This document shows, piece by piece, positions 56,674-64,000 of a stretch of 64,000 nt of DNA. Position 1 is the first letter of the stretch. Each line of letters opens with the position of its first letter. The DNA comes from Devosia sp. A16 (GTDB lineage: Bacteria > Pseudomonadota > Alphaproteobacteria > Rhizobiales > Devosiaceae): the NCBI RefSeq assembly GCF_001402915.1, contig NZ_CP012945.1, positions 2,023,501-2,087,500 of the forward strand. The letters are read 5' to 3'. The notes beneath the pieces are model-generated. The model made no database searches. It was not told the DNA's origin and was given only the letters and a program-made list of their open reading frames with translations. Both the position numbers and the translations under genes were made by a program.

Positions 56674-59600
56674 TCAGCTTGCCGCCAGCAGCGCTTTGAT
56701 GGCGGCGCGCGCCTTGGGGCCAAGCTCGCCGTCGATCGGGCCGTCATAGCGACCGACATTGCTGAGAACCAGCTGGACCACCTGGCGCGTCTCGAGCGAC
56801 AGTCTGGCCGCCCGCTCGATCAGCACGGGCTCGGAGAACTGCCTGCTTTCGACCAGCTCCATGAAAAGCCAGCCGGCGCGGGCGCTGTTGCGTGGTGTGC
56901 CCAGCCCCTCGTCGTAGATCTCGACCAGCCGCCAGCCGGCGCTGGTTCTGCCACCCTCATAAGCCTTTTGCGCCCATGTCCGCGCCTTCACCGGATCGGC
57001 ATCGCCACCGCTTCCCTCCAGCAGATAGCCCGAGACAATCTCCATCGCTGCGTAGGATCCCATCTCGGCCGCCTTGAGATACATGGCGTTGCGCCGCACC
57101 GGATCGACCTCCCCGTCGGAGCTCTCGACATAGAGCCGCGCCAGGTTGTAGGCGGCCAGAGAGCTGTCGTTCTCGATCCCCTGCTGCAGCCACTCCCTGG
57201 CCTTGGCGAGGTCGGCCTCGACCCCCTGCCCGTTCTCATAGAGGCCGCCCATCATCGCATAGGCATCCTTCTCGCCCTGCTCGATCGCCTTTTCGAACAG
57301 GCTGCGGGCTCGTTCGTAGTCCCGGGGGCCGCCCTGTCCGTCGCGACACAGCAACCCCAGCCGCATGAAGGCTTTGCCGCGATCCCAATCTCCGTTGATG
57401 GCGAGCTCGAGGTACTTGCGGGCCTGCGCGTAGTCCTGCTCGACCCCCCGCCCCCACTGATAGAGCCAGGCGAGGCTGATCGCTGCGCTGTCGTCCTTGA
57501 GCTCGAGCGCCCGCTCCAGCCATTTGCGGGCCTGTACGTAGTCGCGCGGGCCACTGCCCTCCATGAAGTCCCGGCCCGTCGACGCCAGTCCGAAGGTCGA
57601 CTCGTTGAGCACCGCGTAGCGCACCTGCCATTCCAGCGCGGCATCGTAGTCGACAGGCACGAAGGTGCCTGCCAGATACGCGTTGGCGATCGCATAGATC
57701 GCCTGCTTGTCGTTCCACCCAGCCGCCTTGAAGTAGAGTTCCCTGGCTTTTTCCGGATCGGGATCGGCAGCGCCGGCATAGGAGTCGGCGAGGCGCACCA
57801 CGGCGCTGCGATCTCCCATGTCTGCCGCGAATTGCAACAGTTGGCGGGCCTGCTCGCGCTCGTCGTAGACGCTGCCCAGTTCGCTGGCGAAGTCGTAATA
57901 GGTGGCATCGAACCACCAGCCATTGTCCAACGCCCGGCGATAAAGCGTCAGCCCCGCATCGAAGTCCCCCGGCCGATCGATGCCGGCAATGGCGGACCGC
58001 GCCAGCTTCGACATCGCTTCGCTGCTGCCGGCCCTGGCCGCGTCCTCATACCATCGGTTGCCGGCCGCGTAATCGTACGCGGCCCCGTCCGGTACGCCAT
58101 AGCCATACTCGAAATAGAGGTCACCCAGCTTGACCTTGGCGTCGATGCGCCCCTGTTCGGCAGCCTTGCTGAGCCATTGGTAGGCGAGATCCGGTTCGCC
58201 GCCGATCTCGTTCGAGCCGACCCACACCATGGCGTCGAGCTGACCCGCTTCAGCCGCCATCATGTAATAGCGGGTCGCCTCGTTGTAGCGCTCGGCCTCC
58301 TCGTTGAACCGGCCGAGGTCGCGCATCGCGGACGGTTCGCCCGCGGCAACGGCCTCCTTCAGCAGTTTTTCCGCGCGGACCTTGTCCGAGGGACCGCCCA
58401 GCCCGCGCCACAGCATCCCGGCCAGGTTGGTGTAGCCGAGCGAGTATCCCGCTGCGACGGCGCGCTCGAACCACTTGCGGGCCTCTTCGGGGGATTGCTT
58501 CAGCCGCCCGCCGTCGCGGTAGGCAAGGCCGAGCTCCACCATGGCCGGAGCCGCTCCGGCATCGGCGGCCTGAACCAGGTACTCGGTGGCCTTTGCCTTG
58601 TCCCGCGGCTCACCGAGCCCCCAAGAGGAGACGACTCCCAGTCCGTTGATCCCTTCCGGATCTCCCGCATCAGCGGCCTGCCGGAAATAGCCGCGCGCAT
58701 CGCGCCCACGTCCGGCGCTGCGATGGATCCACCCCATCGCAACCATCAGTCTGGTGTCGGTGGGGTTGCGCCGCAGCGCGTCCGTGCAGATCGGCTGAGC
58801 CTTCTCCACGTCGATGGCGTAGCGATAGACCCCCTGGTAGTCGTCGCGCATGTCGTAGATGTCGGCGGTGAGCTTGAGGCAATCGTCGGCGGCCTCCCTG
58901 CCCGCCCGCGTCGCGGCCCCGCTGCTTGCCCCGATCGCGGGAGGATTGCTGGGGTCGATCGGACCGAAGATCAGGTCGCCATTGCTGCCGCGCGGCACGA
59001 CGCCGAACTCCGGATTCTGCGGATAGAGGTCGCGATATTGCGGCATGTTGGCATTGACGAAGCCCATCACCTCGCTGCCGGTGATGTACTGGTCGTCATT
59101 GAGGTCGGCCTTGGGCGAGTCGAGCGCCGAGACCAGCAGCGCGCTGAACGCCGCGTCGGCAGGGATCTCCTGCAGCTCGTTGCCGGCGGTGAGGTATTGG
59201 CGAACCGGAGACTGCAGCGCGTCGCTGAGCAGGTAGCCAAGTGGATTGGGCTTGGGCGGCGCCGACAGCGTGGCGATCAGCTTGCCGGCCTCGCATGCCT
59301 CGAAGGCAAAGAACGCGTGCTTGACCCCCATCGTCTCGACCATGCCGACCAGCGACGCCGCCGAAACGGCCTTGCGGACGAACGCCTCCTCGTCCCACCT
59401 CCCCGGCGCATCGGTCGGCACCAGGTAGAGTTGCTGTCCGGCCGGGTCATCGACCGCACCGACGGTCGTGGCATGCCCGAAGTAATAGAAGAAGAATCGC
59501 GAGTTCTGGATCCGGCCATAGCTCTCGAACACCTCGGGCAGCACGTTGCGGAACTCCGCCTTGGTCAGGTCGCGCCAAACCATGACGTGGAAGCCGCGCG

Positions 59601-59898
59601 CCTCCAGCTTCTGGCGCAGCAGCGCTTCGCTCTTGTCGGCGCCCTCCTGCGCCGATTGCCAGCCGGAGCCCGAGTAATCGCCCTGTACGATCAGCACGGC
59701 GTGGCTTTCGGAGTACATCGTCCGGACCGTGCCGCCCTCATCGCGGATCGTCATCGCGGTGCCTTCCGCCCGCGGCGGCGTCTCGTAGTCCGGAGCGACC
59801 GTCCAGTCGACCTCGATGGCCCTTGCCGCGCCGGATGTCAGCCCCATCAGGCCGCCCATCACCAGACCAGTCAGAACAATCCATAACGATCGATACAT
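56674..59898 (-). CDS. Secreted caspase-fold protein with Sel1 repeats and a peptidoglycan-binding-like C-terminus
   Basis: A 1074-residue exported protein. After the signal peptide (MYRSLWIVLTGLVMGG ... GAARA) comes a peptidase C14-like domain (about 60-300) with presumed dyad His142 in YYFGHATT and Cys202 in FAFEACEAGKL. Then about 18 Sel1-like TPR units (GYFRQAADAGDPEGINGLGV type, about 350-1000) follow, and a final 40-residue segment (GRYDGPIDGELGPKARAAIK) like a peptidoglycan-binding domain. The ATG at 59898 follows a poly-G ribosome site. The unusual EACEAG replaces the common DACxSG. It is divergent from a CHAP-type hydrolase gene. Confidence 0.88.
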   Translation of the reverse strand: MYRSLWIVLTGLVMGGLMGLTSGAARAIEVDWTVAPDYETPPRAEGTAMTIRDEGGTVRTMYSESHAVLIVQGDYSGSGWQSAQEGADKSEALLRQKLEARGFHVMVWRDLTKAEFRNVLPEVFESYGRIQNSRFFFYYFGHATTVGAVDDPAGQQLYLVPTDAPGRWDEEAFVRKAVSAASLVGMVETMGVKHAFFAFEACEAGKLIATLSAPPKPNPLGYLLSDALQSPVRQYLTAGNELQEIPADAAFSALLVSALDSPKADLNDDQYITGSEVMGFVNANMPQYRDLYPQNPEFGVVPRGSNGDLIFGPIDPSNPPAIGASSGAATRAGREAADDCLKLTADIYDMRDDYQGVYRYAIDVEKAQPICTDALRRNPTDTRLMVAMGWIHRSAGRGRDARGYFRQAADAGDPEGINGLGVVSSWGLGEPRDKAKATEYLVQAADAGAAPAMVELGLAYRDGGRLKQSPEEARKWFERAVAAGYSLGYTNLAGMLWRGLGGPSDKVRAEKLLKEAVAAGEPSAMRDLGRFNEEAERYNEATRYYMMAAEAGQLDAMVWVGSNEIGGEPDLAYQWLSKAAEQGRIDAKVKLGDLYFEYGYGVPDGAAYDYAAGNRWYEDAARAGSSEAMSKLARSAIAGIDRPGDFDAGLTLYRRALDNGWWFDATYYDFASELGSVYDEREQARQLLQFAADMGDRSAVVRLADSYAGAADPDPEKARELYFKAAGWNDKQAIYAIANAYLAGTFVPVDYDAALEWQVRYAVLNESTFGLASTGRDFMEGSGPRDYVQARKWLERALELKDDSAAISLAWLYQWGRGVEQDYAQARKYLELAINGDWDRGKAFMRLGLLCRDGQGGPRDYERARSLFEKAIEQGEKDAYAMMGGLYENGQGVEADLAKAREWLQQGIENDSSLAAYNLARLYVESSDGEVDPVRRNAMYLKAAEMGSYAAMEIVSGYLLEGSGGDADPVKARTWAQKAYEGGRTSAGWRLVEIYDEGLGTPRNSARAGWLFMELVESRQFSEPVLIERAARLSLETRQVVQLVLSNVGRYDGPIDGELGPKARAAIKALLAAS

Positions 59899-60044
59899 GA
59901 TACGCCGCCCCCCCATGGCCCGTATCGACTATACAGATGAGCTGAATTCTCACAATTGACCCCGAACGATTTGTGGTTGCGGATCACTTGTTGAGTAACA
60001 CGGGCTTGCATAGACTATTCGACTGGATCGGTTTGGAGGGAACC

Positions 60045-60773
60045 ATGCTGTCGCGTCGAACTGTCCTGGGTGCTGCACTCGCCTGGTCGGCACTTCCTCG
60101 GCTGGCGCATGCCGAACTCTCACCCGATGAGGTGTTGCGGCAGGCGATCGCATTGGAGGCGTCCAATCCGGTGTTCCTGGGTGCCACGCCACTTCCCGAG
60201 GACGATGCACGCTGGGCCGAGGCGCGGGCATATCTCGACGCCGCCCCGACCGGGACATTTCCGCATAAGGTCGCGCGCTACTTCGACCAGGCCGTACCGG
60301 AGAGCTTCCAGGAGCGCTGGCCGGACGCCTACGCCAACCCGTTGATCGTCTGGTTCTTCCTCGAGACGAGGACCAAGCCGGAGGGCGACCTCACCGCCTG
60401 GTGCGCAGCCTTCGTCAGTTGGTGCCTCGAGCGTTCCGGTGTAGCGAGCGCCAGAAGCGCCGCGTCAGCCGCTTACCGCAGCTGGGGAGAGGCCGCCTGG
60501 AGCAACGGCGAAGCTCTGCCGGGCAAGGCGCAGCCGGGCGACATCGCAGTGTTCAGGCAATTGTCCGATCCCGCCCACGGCCATGTCGGCTTCTTCATGG
60601 GCGTGGATCCGCAATCTGACGGCCGCATCATGGTGCTGGGCGGCAACCAGCGGACCCAGGGCGCAGTGCGCAAGAGTCACGCCGTCACCCATGTCAGCAT
60701 GCGGACCACCGGCAATCTGGAACTGCACAGCATCCGCACGGCGCCCGGGCTGCGCCCGGCCGCTACATCGTGA
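60045..60773 (+). CDS. Exported CHAP/NlpC-like (TIGR02594-type) hydrolase
   Basis: A 242-residue protein with a Tat-like leader (MLSRRTVLGAALAWSALP, cleavage near AHA). The catalytic region is DLTAWCAAFVSWCLERSG with Cys in WCAAF, and the His is in AHGHVGFFMG, as in CHAP or TIGR02594 peptidoglycan amidase-like proteins. The ATG at 60045 has GGAGGG upstream. It starts about 150 bp from the divergent caspase-fold gene, suggesting joint cell-envelope action (inferred). Its 3' end overlaps the convergent SDR gene by 11 bp. Confidence 0.87.
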   Translation: MLSRRTVLGAALAWSALPRLAHAELSPDEVLRQAIALEASNPVFLGATPLPEDDARWAEARAYLDAAPTGTFPHKVARYFDQAVPESFQERWPDAYANPLIVWFFLETRTKPEGDLTAWCAAFVSWCLERSGVASARSAASAAYRSWGEAAWSNGEALPGKAQPGDIAVFRQLSDPAHGHVGFFMGVDPQSDGRIMVLGGNQRTQGAVRKSHAVTHVSMRTTGNLELHSIRTAPGLRPAATS

Positions 60774-61515
60774 TCCCGCCATCCACCACGAAATTGGACC
60801 CCGTCGCGTAAGCGCTCTCGTCGCTGGCGAGGTACACCAGCAGGTGCGCGATTTCTTCCGGTTGTGCCATGCGGCCCATCGGCTGGCGGGCGATGAAGGT
60901 CTTCCATACCTCGTCGTGGTCACCAAGCGCGTGCGCCCGCTCGTGCAGCGACGGCGAGTCGACGCTGCCGGGGCAGATGGTGTTGGCCCGGATGCCATTC
61001 TTCATGTAGTCGAACGCCACCGACTTGGTGAAGCCGATCACCGCCGCCTTCGACGACATATAGCTCACCCGGTTTGGCACCCCCTTCATCGAAGAGGCGA
61101 CCGAAGCGACGTTGATGATGTTGGCGCCGCCCTGCGCGATGAAGGCGGGCAGGAACGCCTGGGTCAGGACGAACATCGGCGTCACGTTGATATCGAAGCT
61201 GAGCTGCCACTCCTCCAGCGTCGTCGTCCCCAGCATCCCCTGATGCACCCAGCCGGCGCCGTTATAGAGCACGTTGACGCCCTGGTGCCGGGCGGCCGCT
61301 TCGCGCAGCGCCAGATGGTCGGTGACGTCGAGCGCGTAGGTCTCGTGCCCAGCCGAGATTGCCTTCAGCTCCTCGCCCTTGCGAGCGATCCCCTCGGCGT
61401 CGCGGTCGGTGGCGATGACCCGTGCCCCCTCACGGGCAAAGGCCGTCGCCGCCGCGCCGCCGATACCCGCGGCCGCCGCCGTCATGAAGATGGTCTTCCC
61501 CTCGAGCCGTCCCAT
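60763..61515 (-). CDS. SDR-family oxidoreductase (ketodeoxy-sugar-acid dehydrogenase-like)
   Basis: A 250-residue classical SDR. The nucleotide motif is FMTAAAAGIGGAAATAF, a variant of TGxxxGIG, then NGAGWVHQG, catalytic Ser in VASVASSMKG, YMSSK, and CPGSVDSP. The N-terminus and overall pattern resemble 2-keto-3-deoxy-L-fuconate dehydrogenase and DHRS6/BDH2-type enzymes. A GGGAG ribosome site is present. It is divergent from the phosphotransferase/enolase-like operon with a palindrome between them. Confidence 0.87.
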   Translation of the reverse strand: MGRLEGKTIFMTAAAAGIGGAAATAFAREGARVIATDRDAEGIARKGEELKAISAGHETYALDVTDHLALREAAARHQGVNVLYNGAGWVHQGMLGTTTLEEWQLSFDINVTPMFVLTQAFLPAFIAQGGANIINVASVASSMKGVPNRVSYMSSKAAVIGFTKSVAFDYMKNGIRANTICPGSVDSPSLHERAHALGDHDEVWKTFIARQPMGRMAQPEEIAHLLVYLASDESAYATGSNFVVDGGITM

Positions 61516-61588
61516 TTTCTCCCTTTCCGTCCAGTTGCTTCAGCGACCAAAGCCCTAGCCGCCCGGTCGTTGTTCCATTCCCCCCGTG

Positions 61589-61601
61589 TGGTACCATACC
61601 A
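61589..61601. promoter_or_regulatory. GntR-type operator palindrome
   Basis: TGGTACCATACCA, arms TGGTA/TACCA, lies midway between the divergent SDR and phosphotransferase starts. It has the TGGT...ACCA form bound by FadR-type GntR regulators. No such regulator gene is inside the window. Confidence 0.6.
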
Positions 61602-61624: not shown

Positions 61625-62638
61625 ATGGATGACTTGACCTGGGAAGCATTGCTTCCCCCGATCTTTGCGTCTGCCGGCATCGACGCCGGCGGAACACTGG
61701 AGATCGCCCCGCTCACCGGCGGGGTTTCATCGGACATTGTGCGGATCCGCCTCCCCGATGGCCGGCAATACTGCGCCAAGCGCGCCTTGGGTAAGCTCAA
61801 GGTCGCCACCGACTGGCAGGCGCCGCTCGAGCGCAATCAGTATGAGGTGGCCTGGCTGCGCCGCGCCAATGCCATCATCCCCGGCGCCGCCCCCGAGGTG
61901 ATCGGCGAGGATCGGGCACACGGCATCGCGCTGCTCGAGTACCTGCCGGCCGAGGACTATGTGCTGTGGAAGGCCGAACTGCTGGCCGGTCGCGCCGATC
62001 CGGCGGTACCGGTTGCCGTTGCCGAAGCGCTCGGCCGCATCCATGCCGCAACGCTGAACGATCCCACCGCCGCCGCCGAGTTTCCGACCGACCACCTGAT
62101 CGACGCCCTGCGGCTCGACCCCTACCTGCGCTTCACCGCCGGCCGCCATCCCGAATTGAGCGCGCAGATTCTCGCCGTGCTCGCGACGACCGCGAACACC
62201 CGACTGGCCCTCGTCCACGGCGATGTCAGCCCCAAGAACATCCTGATCTCGAAACGCGACGGCCGCCCGGTGCTGCTCGATGCCGAATGCGCCTGGTATG
62301 GCGATCCCGCCTTCGATGCCGCGTTCTGCCTCAATCACCTGGTGCTGAAATCCATCCACCTGCCGGCTCTCGGCGACCGGCTGCTCGATCAGGCGGCGGC
62401 TTTCACCACCACTTGGCTCAGGCATTTTCCGGGCGAGCTGCGCGCCGACACCGAGGCGCGAGTCGCCGCCCTGCTGCCCTGCCTGATGCTGGCACGCGTC
62501 GACGGCAAATCGCCGGTCGAATACCTGAGCGACGCCAGTCGTCAGCAGGTGCGCGACCGCGCCATCCCGCATATTCGGCAGGCCCCGGCAACCATCGCGG
62601 CGCTGCTTGCCGACCTTAGTTCTCATCGAGGTAGATAG
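61625..62638 (+). CDS. Phosphotransferase of the aminoglycoside/choline kinase fold
   Basis: A 337-residue small-molecule kinase. LTGGVSSDIVRIRL forms the nucleotide loop, YCAKRALGKLKV holds the ATP-binding Lys, the catalytic loop is VHGDVSPKNIL, and the metal Asp is in VLLDAECAWYGDPAFD. The family phosphorylates hydroxyl groups of small metabolites; an antibiotic target is not indicated. It lies 6 bp before an enolase-like gene, suggesting it makes the phosphorylated substrate for that enzyme (inferred). Confidence 0.87.
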   Translation: MDDLTWEALLPPIFASAGIDAGGTLEIAPLTGGVSSDIVRIRLPDGRQYCAKRALGKLKVATDWQAPLERNQYEVAWLRRANAIIPGAAPEVIGEDRAHGIALLEYLPAEDYVLWKAELLAGRADPAVPVAVAEALGRIHAATLNDPTAAAEFPTDHLIDALRLDPYLRFTAGRHPELSAQILAVLATTANTRLALVHGDVSPKNILISKRDGRPVLLDAECAWYGDPAFDAAFCLNHLVLKSIHLPALGDRLLDQAAAFTTTWLRHFPGELRADTEARVAALLPCLMLARVDGKSPVEYLSDASRQQVRDRAIPHIRQAPATIAALLADLSSHRGR

Positions 62639-62644
62639 CTCGCT

Positions 62645-63931
62645 ATGTCAGGCATCAAGACTGTTCTCGGCCGCCAGGTGTGGGACTCGCGCGGCCGCCC
62701 CACCGTCGAAGTCGAGGTCACCCTCGAGAGCGGCGCGACCGGCCGCGCCATCGCGCCTTCGGGCGCCTCCACCGGCAGCCGCGAAGCGCTCGACCGGCGC
62801 GATGGCGGCAAGCGGCTGGGCGGCTACGGCGTCAACGGAGCGCTCGCGGCAGTGAACGGCGAGATTGCGGGCCGCTTGCAGGGTCTGGACGCACTCGACC
62901 AGGCTGGCGTCGATGCGGCCATGATCGCGTTGGACGGTACGCCGCAGAAGACCCGGCTGGGAGGCAACGCCATCGTCGCCACCTCCTCGGCCGTGGCGTG
63001 GGCCGCCGCGGCCGAGCAGCGCATCCCGCTGTGGCGGCACTTGCGGCGGCTCGGCAGGCTCGATCCCGAGACCCAGCATATCCCCGCTCCGATGATCCAG
63101 ATCTTCGGCGGCGGCCGCCATGCCGGCAATCGCATCGACATCCAGGATTTCCTCATCCTCGCCGTCGGCGCGAAGAGTTTCGCCGCCGCGACCGAGCAGA
63201 TCGCCGAAGTCTACATGGCGGCCAGCAAGGCGATGGTGCAGCAGGGCAAACTCAACGGCGTCGCCGACGAGGGCGGCGTCTGGCCCGACTTCACCGCCAA
63301 CGAGGACGGGCTCGAGTTGCTCACCCGCGCCATCGAGAGTGCGGGCCTCAAGCCCGGCACCGATATCGGCATCGCCCTCGACGTCGCCGCCACGTCGTTC
63401 TTCGCCGATGGCGCTTATCGCCTGGCGCTCGAGGGACGGCAGCTGTCGACGCTGCAGCTGATCGAACTGCTGCAATCCTGGGTCGCCGCCTACCCCATCG
63501 TCTCGCTCGAAGACCCCCTCGCCGAGGATGACGACGCCGGCTTCGCCGAAATCACCCGACGCCTCGGCAAGTCCATCCAAATCGTCGGTGACGATTATCT
63601 GACCACCTCGGAGTCCCGTATTGCCCTTGCGGCAGAACAGGGATGCTGCAATTCGGTGTTGCTCAAATCGAATCAGTGCGGCACCCTGACGGAACTGATC
63701 GAAGCAAGCACGCGCGCCCGCGCCGCCGGCTGGAATACCATCCAGTCGGGCCGCTCCGGCGAAAGTGAAGATGTGACGCTCAGTCATCTGGCCGTCGGCT
63801 TGATGTCTGACCAGATCAAGGTCGGCTCGATGACGCGCTCGGAGCGGACTGCGAAGTGGAATGAAGTGATCCGCATCGAGGATTACTGCGTGACGCCGCG
63901 CTACTGGCGTTTCACCATTCCGCGGCTGTAG
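62645..63931 (+). CDS. Enolase paralogue with altered active site
   Basis: A 428-residue enolase-family protein (VLGRQVWDSRGRPTVEVEV, APSGASTGSREAL). Metal ligands Asp246, Glu289 and Asp316, catalytic Glu209 (ADEGG) and Lys341 (LLKSNQCG), and Lys392 (QIKVGS) are kept. However, the E. coli His373 position (ISHRSGE) is Gly369 here (IQSGRSGE), Glu168 of DIQEF is Asp168, and GGEHA reads GGRHA. These positions bind or protonate 2-phosphoglycerate, so a different phosphorylated substrate is likely. It is in an operon with a kinase, so it is probably not the housekeeping eno. Confidence 0.87.
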   Translation: MSGIKTVLGRQVWDSRGRPTVEVEVTLESGATGRAIAPSGASTGSREALDRRDGGKRLGGYGVNGALAAVNGEIAGRLQGLDALDQAGVDAAMIALDGTPQKTRLGGNAIVATSSAVAWAAAAEQRIPLWRHLRRLGRLDPETQHIPAPMIQIFGGGRHAGNRIDIQDFLILAVGAKSFAAATEQIAEVYMAASKAMVQQGKLNGVADEGGVWPDFTANEDGLELLTRAIESAGLKPGTDIGIALDVAATSFFADGAYRLALEGRQLSTLQLIELLQSWVAAYPIVSLEDPLAEDDDAGFAEITRRLGKSIQIVGDDYLTTSESRIALAAEQGCCNSVLLKSNQCGTLTELIEASTRARAAGWNTIQSGRSGESEDVTLSHLAVGLMSDQIKVGSMTRSERTAKWNEVIRIEDYCVTPRYWRFTIPRL

Positions 63932-64000
63932 TCGAATGCAGGGCAGTTTGGGGGAGACAGTTGGGGGACGCAGACAGACTGAGGGGCGCGGGCCGGCCGG

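Follow-up and report, generated by a model that had tools for sequence, protein, structure and literature searches.

The window (the whole stretch of Devosia DNA that was analyzed, 64,000 nucleotides in length) lies in a genome that consists of a single contig of 5.03 Mb. Toward its end, an enolase paralogue follows a kinase gene on the same strand, and a gene for a short-chain oxidoreductase (SDR) runs in the opposite direction (Table 1). An earlier, sequence-only reading of this DNA had described the kinase as an APH-fold protein encoded 6 bp upstream of the enolase and the SDR gene as divergent from it. Both statements agree with our coordinates; the kinase frame ends at 62638 and the enolase frame opens at 62645, which leaves a gap of 6 bases. 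The kinase could also start at a GTG at 61586. Among 12 Devosia-type loci, 10 have an SDR that is 76 to 98% identical. The IlvD/EDD dehydratase, which lies beyond the window, passes two subfamily cutoffs. On the far side of the SDR gene, its 3′ end is overlapped by the 3′ end of a gene for a CHAP-domain protein (59973-60773, plus strand; Pfam CHAP, with TIGR02594 slightly under its cutoff). Next to this is a gene for a 1080-aa protein (56674-59916, minus strand), which, by eye, appears to carry a caspase-like domain and then many Sel1 repeats.

Table 1. Coordinates of genes and sites at the Devosia kinase-enolase locus
Feature	Position	Strand	Basis or remark
Enolase paralogue, 428 aa	62645-63931	+	Intact ORF, profile matches, alignment
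Asp168 codon (position of yeast Glu168)	63146-63148	+	Alignment
Gly369 codon (position of yeast His373; Ala in most relatives)	63749-63751	+	Alignment
APH-fold kinase, methylthioribose-kinase branch, 337 aa from ATG 61625	61625-62638	+	
Classical SDR oxidoreductase, 250 aa, divergent from kinase	60763-61515	-	
TGGTACCATACCA	61589-61601	+	Probable part of a promoter
LacI-family regulator gene, start at window edge	63961-64000; full gene L003:4461-5486	+	Start codon uncertain
IlvD/EDD dehydratase beyond window, after LacI gene	L003:5653-7464 = window position 65153-66964		

Promoter and regulator

The element TGGTACCATACCA had been taken for a GntR-type palindrome, an assignment that we could not sustain. 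Its exact copy occurs once in the genome and recurs in only 3 of the 12 Devosia-type loci (L035, L036, and L037, whose enolases are 90 to 92% identical to that of the window); it is absent from the other nine, so that the conservation expected of an operator was not found in relatives of the locus. By eye, the window site reads TTGTTC - 16 - TACCAT, which is sigma-70-like, and four divergent loci (L038, L041, L042, and L047) keep TTGTT[C/G] - 17 - TA[C/A]CAT (also by eye). The outer halves of the palindrome are not retained in these four, which speaks against a GntR operator. Because it is the -35/-10-like pair that persists there, we read TGGTACCATACCA as a -10 region, and on this comparison it is more likely to be the -10 part of a kinase-enolase promoter than a GntR operator. 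The adjoining regulator is of the LacI type. Its closest NCBIfam model is a gluconate-type LacI repressor named GntR (273 bits; cutoff, 400), this being a LacI-family name distinct from the GntR family of the earlier assignment. The downstream LacI gene is the likelier regulator of the kinase-enolase promoter.

The enolase paralogue and its active site

The paralogue has the domain content of an enolase, with Pfam Enolase_N at residues 4 to 133 (158.5 bits; cutoff, 35) followed by Enolase_C at residues 145 to 413 (280 bits; cutoff, 21.5). It also exceeds the cutoff of TIGR01060 for phosphopyruvate hydratase (453.4 bits against 300), and the automatic name "eno" thus fails to separate the clade described below. 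MR_MLE_C was matched at 34.8 bits (cutoff, 29.4), far under Enolase_C; judged by score, this is a distant superfamily match, and the MR/MLE dehydratases are not the main family of the protein. Identity to full-length canonical enolases of the same order is 43 to 49%, and a canonical eno, 47% identical to the paralogue, is indeed present elsewhere in the Devosia genome.

Alignment to yeast enolase bore out the central observation of the sequence-only reading, namely, that Glu168 is replaced by Asp (Asp168) and His373 by Gly (Gly369), so that the paralogue lacks both residues expected of a glycolytic enolase. It was likewise correct that the metal ligands (Asp246, Glu295, and Asp320, to which we add Ser39) and both lysines (the base Lys345 and Lys396) are retained; also kept are His159, Glu211, Arg374, and Ser375. 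A third proposed change, from Glu-His-Ala to Arg-His-Ala, is present but carries little meaning, because the residue that precedes His159 is A, E, K, Q, S, or V in canonical enolases; Arg158 was set aside as a candidate for this reason. In most of the wider clade, Ser36 (the first Ser of PSGAST) is Ala, and Ser39 is kept. That the gene is a pseudogene is countered by its intact frame, by conservation across phyla, and by the invariant metal and Lys residues.

A separate clade of enolases

Relatives were gathered in two samples. The first came from a pattern scan of 84,980 species genomes, from which the best 80 of 126 relatives' loci were kept; its patterns cover neither residue 168 nor residue 369, and one of them (ERTAKWNE) spans positions 405 and 407. 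The second sample, which is independent of that pattern, comprised 35 loci drawn regardless of the query, 2 of which are common to the first (L178 = L109; L179 = L065). The canonical comparison set consisted of 38 enolases from related and carrier genomes. Truncated or split sequences (L044, L047, L048, and L063) and a duplicate (L003) were left out of the residue alignment, and L052 was additionally left out when switched positions were compared (76 paralogue rows against 38 canonical rows).

Asp168 together with Ala or Gly at 369 was found in 76 of 77 paralogue rows of the first sample (window included), and Asp168 with Ala369 was found in all 35 loci of the second. All 38 canonical enolases carry Glu168 and His373, and the paired substitutions were thus seen in none of the glycolytic enolases compared, as far as these were tested. 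Gly369 is a mark of the Devosia group; the remaining paralogues have Ala369. Ten positions are switched and near invariant within each group (N152Q, N155G, E168D, G207A, A213W, L279W, H369A/G, T393V, Y405W, and Q407E), several of them within active-site motifs, and these hold in 34 or 35 of the 35 second-sample loci (W405 in 35 and E407 in 34). The metal ligands, Lys345, Lys396, Glu211, Arg374, and Ser375 are kept in the paralogues compared, one degenerate copy excepted. As judged from the alignments, the switches are remodeling rather than decay. In a maximum-likelihood tree (119 rows, quick method), the 38 canonical rows fell on one side of a branch with an SH-aLRT support of 100 and the paralogue did not group with them. 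Tree and residue pattern together uphold the earlier suspicion that this is an enolase cluster of its own.

The degenerate copy (L052:8001-9308, from a metagenome-assembled genome [MAG]) has Glu168 and Ala369, with its catalytic Lys345 replaced by Thr and Glu211 by Gln, and lacks the kinase; from these residues, it is likely decayed or a pseudoenzyme. On a contig labeled Afipia (L047:6984-9281), the locus is of the Devosia type (SDR/kinase/enolase/LacI/IlvD), and its kinase and enolase are each broken up among several reading frames, reflecting a decayed copy, sequencing errors, or misbinning.

Named carriers belong to the Pseudomonadota, Actinomycetota, Bacillota, Planctomycetota, and Spirochaetota, with one Binatota MAG; they include many MAG contigs, some of which may be misbinned. 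In two even samples that both contain the Devosia genome, and that supplied the 35 loci of the second sample, a copy was found in at least 9 of 398 genomes for the phylum and at least 30 of 385 for the class, these being lower bounds because the threshold used (E ≤ 1e-120) misses more divergent members. At least 343 plasmid records were matched, and in annotated plasmid records the paralogue bears the name "phosphopyruvate hydratase"; 12 regions among those listed were fetched and 11 were profile scanned, with one (L237, 47% identical and apparently canonical) excluded from the scan. When the clade profile was compared with the PDB, all entries among the 60 of 67 matches listed (up to 534 bits) were named enolase or phosphopyruvate hydratase, and in the alignment with 4mks, the one inspected, His occupies the position of residue 369.

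The partner kinase

The tight pairing of kinase and enolase that had been noted in Devosia recurs in most relatives. After dereplication at 85% identity (106 loci reduced to 87), the kinase was found directly upstream on the same strand in 78 of the 85 paralogue loci with at least 1.1 kb of upstream sequence, and the two genes overlap by 4 bases in 45 of the 70 loci measured. A kinase occurs in the scanned flanks of 30 of 35 second-sample loci, compared with 0 of 38 canonical enolase loci. The only Pfam domain of the window's kinase is PF01636 (APH); neither of the domains that mark glycerate 2-kinases (PF02595, GarK; PF05161, MOFRL) is present. It falls in the same fold branch as methylthioribose kinase and retains its catalytic motifs.

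Neighboring genes across lineages

Families encoded within 6 kb were scored by profile searches on stop-to-stop frames at 69 dereplicated paralogue loci (at least 3 kb on each side) and 20 canonical enolase loci. A D-2-hydroxyacid dehydrogenase was found at 25 paralogue loci, an SDR at 24, LacI at 19, IlvD at 8, TRAP at 7, and UxuA at 4, each compared with 0 of 20 canonical loci, and FAH (15 of 69) and MHS transporters (5 of 69) were each seen at a single canonical locus, a contrast that is partly by construction because the family models were built from the paralogue loci themselves. At 21 of the 69 loci, no tested family beyond kinase, SDR, or LacI was matched.

The arrangement varies with lineage. 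In sphingomonads (L061, L093, and L108), the order is kinase-enolase-FAH-SDR, and annotated plasmids of Paracoccus and Roseibium have these genes plus sugar ABC transporters. Rhodospirillales (L058, L065, and L100) show dehydrogenase-kinase-enolase-FAH with TRAP, and Phytobacter and Enterobacter (L059 and L074) show kinase-enolase-MHS-dehydrogenase followed by MhpD-like and HpaI-like genes. Actinomycetes (L088, L096, L113, and L114) have SDR, UxuA, and lactonase-like genes around the pair, with FAH variable; unlike in the other three, no lactonase-like gene was matched in L114, and L088 also has KDG-kinase-like and KDPG-aldolase-like genes (both named by eye). A Selenomonadales MAG (L104) has the order kinase-enolase-dehydrogenase-RraA-GarR. 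In a Devosia MAG (L046:497-5783), two large GH38 alpha-mannosidase-like genes (named by eye) lie upstream of the pair, a hint of a carbohydrate source.

2-Keto-3-deoxy acids can be consumed by FAH proteins, aldolases, and KDG enzymes. Against the model for 2,4-didehydro-3-deoxy-l-rhamnonate hydrolase (cutoff, 500), the FAH proteins of L093 and L227 scored 352 and 173 bits, respectively, which by score is a likeness at the family level only. That hydrolase acts on 2-keto-3-deoxy acids oxidized by an SDR, and l-rhamnose and l-fucose are the sugars for which such a route of SDR and hydrolase has been described (PMC11199699).

In the Rhizobium plasmid clusters L227 (2922-20713), L228, and L240, genes for the paralogue and the kinase are accompanied by those for a D-2-hydroxyacid dehydrogenase, PEP carboxylase, a VOC protein, a cupin, a protein of the FAH family, and an ABC importer of the amino acid type. 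The VOC protein of L227 is an HpaD-like extradiol dioxygenase, L228 also includes a P450 system, and L240 has a formaldehyde-glutathione gene close by; these contents hint at an aromatic substrate.

Putative reaction of the pair

In canonical enolase, two Mg2+ ions hold the 2-phospho acid, Lys345 takes the C2 proton, and Glu211 aids departure of the hydroxide, with Ser39 being the only residue that directly binds the second Mg2+ (PMC4450660). The same paper lists Glu165, Glu206, Lys338, Arg367, and Ser368 as 2-PGA contacts in Chloroflexus enolase (PMC4450660), which we take to be yeast Glu168, Glu211, Lys345, Arg374, and Ser375. From the residues kept in the paralogue, proton abstraction and elimination are predicted to proceed as in the canonical enzyme, with a 2-phospho acid of like configuration, and from the two shortened side chains and the other switches, a changed C3 end is predicted. 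His373 of yeast enolase holds water jointly with Glu168 and Glu211, and residues 168 and 369 sit near the leaving hydroxide in canonical enolase, according to yeast structures.

We consider it an even bet that kinase and paralogue form a two-step module for acid catabolism, phosphorylation followed by elimination, whose substrate would probably be an aldonate instead of 2-phosphoglycerate. The kinase, a methylthioribose-kinase-like enzyme, would phosphorylate the C2 hydroxyl of a (2R)-2,3-dihydroxy acid that, in many lineages, may come from the adjoining D-2-hydroxyacid dehydrogenase. The paralogue would then bind the 2-phospho acid via two Mg2+ ions, Lys396, Arg374, and Ser375; Lys345 would abstract the C2 proton and Glu211 expel the C3 hydroxyl to give a PEP-type enol phosphate. 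Replacement of Glu168 by Asp and of His373 by Ala or Gly, along with the other switches, would reshape and probably enlarge the C3 end, from which we infer a substrate other than 2-phosphoglycerate, probably an acid of more than three carbons. Loss or transfer of the phosphate by a putative further enzyme would yield a 2-keto-3-deoxy acid, which could enter one of the routes encoded beside the pair in different lineages (an SDR together with an FAH-type hydrolase, an aldolase, or a KDG kinase). A C3-substituted acid (an aldonate) gives the best fit to most of the informative neighbors.

The proposal is at its weakest beyond the enol phosphate, because no phosphate-removing enzyme was found in the scanned flanks; relatives of pyruvate kinase and PPDK, considered for this role, were absent from those of 117 paralogue loci (not dereplicated), and the single pyruvate kinase match fell in a control locus (L207). 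A more specific version, in which the pair would act as a phosphorylative dehydratase for aldonates, with ATP activation at C2 leading to a 2-phosphoenol-3-deoxy acid and the phosphate being returned to ADP in the manner of pyruvate kinase, must be called speculative and is probably wrong. The sequence-only reading had pictured a catabolic route of oxidation, phosphorylation, and elimination. The setting does look catabolic, and phosphorylation followed by elimination is the likeliest scheme, but the place given to the SDR as the first step did not find support: its model matches in only about a third of the loci counted above, and in several lineages it adjoins an FAH-type hydrolase, which makes a downstream role more likely.

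Counting against an aldonate is the presence of PEP carboxylase within ca. 3 kb of dehydrogenase and kinase in five Rhizobium-type loci (L227, L228, and L240 by annotation; L229 and L182 by similarity), an arrangement in keeping with PEP itself being formed; the extradiol-dioxygenase-like gene in one Rhizobium cluster is also unlike sugar-acid catabolism. The pair may instead belong to a dedicated branch from D-glycerate to PEP, serine-cycle-like or GarK-like, in which the dehydrogenase would convert hydroxypyruvate to D-glycerate, the kinase would represent a glycerate 2-kinase of a new type, and the paralogue would be a pathway-specific 2-phosphoglycerate enolase. Consistent with this, the paralogue retains the residues with which enolase binds its substrate, and in L104 the pair has beside it genes for an RraA-type protein and a tartronate-semialdehyde reductase (521 bits; cutoff, 397). 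Both of the dehydrogenases that were scanned are similar to phosphoglycerate dehydrogenase and to glyoxylate/hydroxypyruvate reductases, with scores below the cutoffs of those models. However, a full canonical enolase is present in 25 of 26 carrier genomes (the 26th, G065, has only a 26-residue fragment beside its paralogue) and a known glycerate kinase family in 24 of 26 (MOFRL in 13 and GarK type in 12, one genome having both), so that the ordinary glycerate-to-PEP route is already there; Devosia itself has a MOFRL kinase and canonical eno, with no GarK-type kinase found in its genome. Such a branch also leaves E168D, H373A/G, and the other invariant switches unexplained, and we regard it as a possible but doubtful explanation.

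PEP could also arise by loss of a group other than hydroxide, from a C2-phosphorylated 3-substituted lactate whose bulkier leaving group would occupy the C3 pocket. The shortening of residues 168 and 369, the PEP carboxylase of the Rhizobium-type loci, and the D-2-hydroxyacid dehydrogenase would all fit, yet no neighbor indicates a particular leaving group and Glu211, which serves as the acid when hydroxide is lost, is retained, so that we think this improbable. That the paralogue is a former enolase with a regulatory or scaffolding role strikes us as very improbable indeed, given that the remaining catalytic and metal positions do not vary in any of the 27 members aligned, that it is strictly paired with a kinase that retains catalytic motifs, and that yeast His373 variants reportedly keep up to ca. 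10% of activity (about a tenth for H373N). A noncatalytic role would sit well with L052, which lacks the catalytic Lys, Glu211, and the kinase, and with the loss of His373, which PMC5237310 cites as required for yeast enolase activity.

Significance and relation to known systems

In the open-licence literature, we found no description of such a clade, its pathway, or its relatives, and one may be in print elsewhere. True enolases are usually regarded as a one-reaction family. Within the true enolases, the clade is a subfamily distinguished by its constant kinase partner and by a putative reaction, and the occurrence of the pair across several phyla suggests an unrecognized step in the breakdown of sugar-type acids, in which phosphate is added and water is then removed. 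What makes this worth pursuing is that a coherent multiphylum clade passes the curated eno cutoff even though its active site has been rebuilt and its kinase partner is constant. If the paralogue acts on another acid, then pathway maps lack a part of sugar-acid or hydroxy-acid metabolism, and some of the eno annotations in metagenomes and in metabolic models are in error. Were it an aldonate dehydratase, true enolases would have a second reaction, one that does the job of a sugar-acid dehydratase by the logic of lower glycolysis and has been hidden in databases under "eno." The question is directly testable, because both genes are short, overlap in most cases, and lend themselves to assay.

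With glycolytic enolase (TIGR01060), the paralogues share a family, but they form a separate clade marked by E168D, H373A/G, N152Q, N155G, G207A, A213W, and other switches, and they are paired with a kinase. That kinase, in turn, is only 16 to 18% identical to methylthioribose kinase (MtnK) and reaches 46 bits against TIGR01767, well short of the cutoff of 275. The nonphosphorylating routes of the l-rhamnose/l-fucose type, in which a sugar-acid dehydratase is followed by an SDR and then a hydrolase (PMC11199699), resemble the loci of several lineages in having SDR and FAH hydrolase genes together; here, however, it is the kinase-enolase pair that adjoins them. Devosia and some actinomycete loci also have an IlvD/EDD- or UxuA-type dehydratase, and the pair is thus not a simple replacement there. 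As for the GarK-type and serine-cycle routes from glycerate to PEP, a 2-hydroxyacid reductase, a kinase, an enolase, and, in one lineage, PEP carboxylase are held in common, whereas the kinase is of another fold, the enolase active site is changed, and the carriers mostly have known glycerate kinases.
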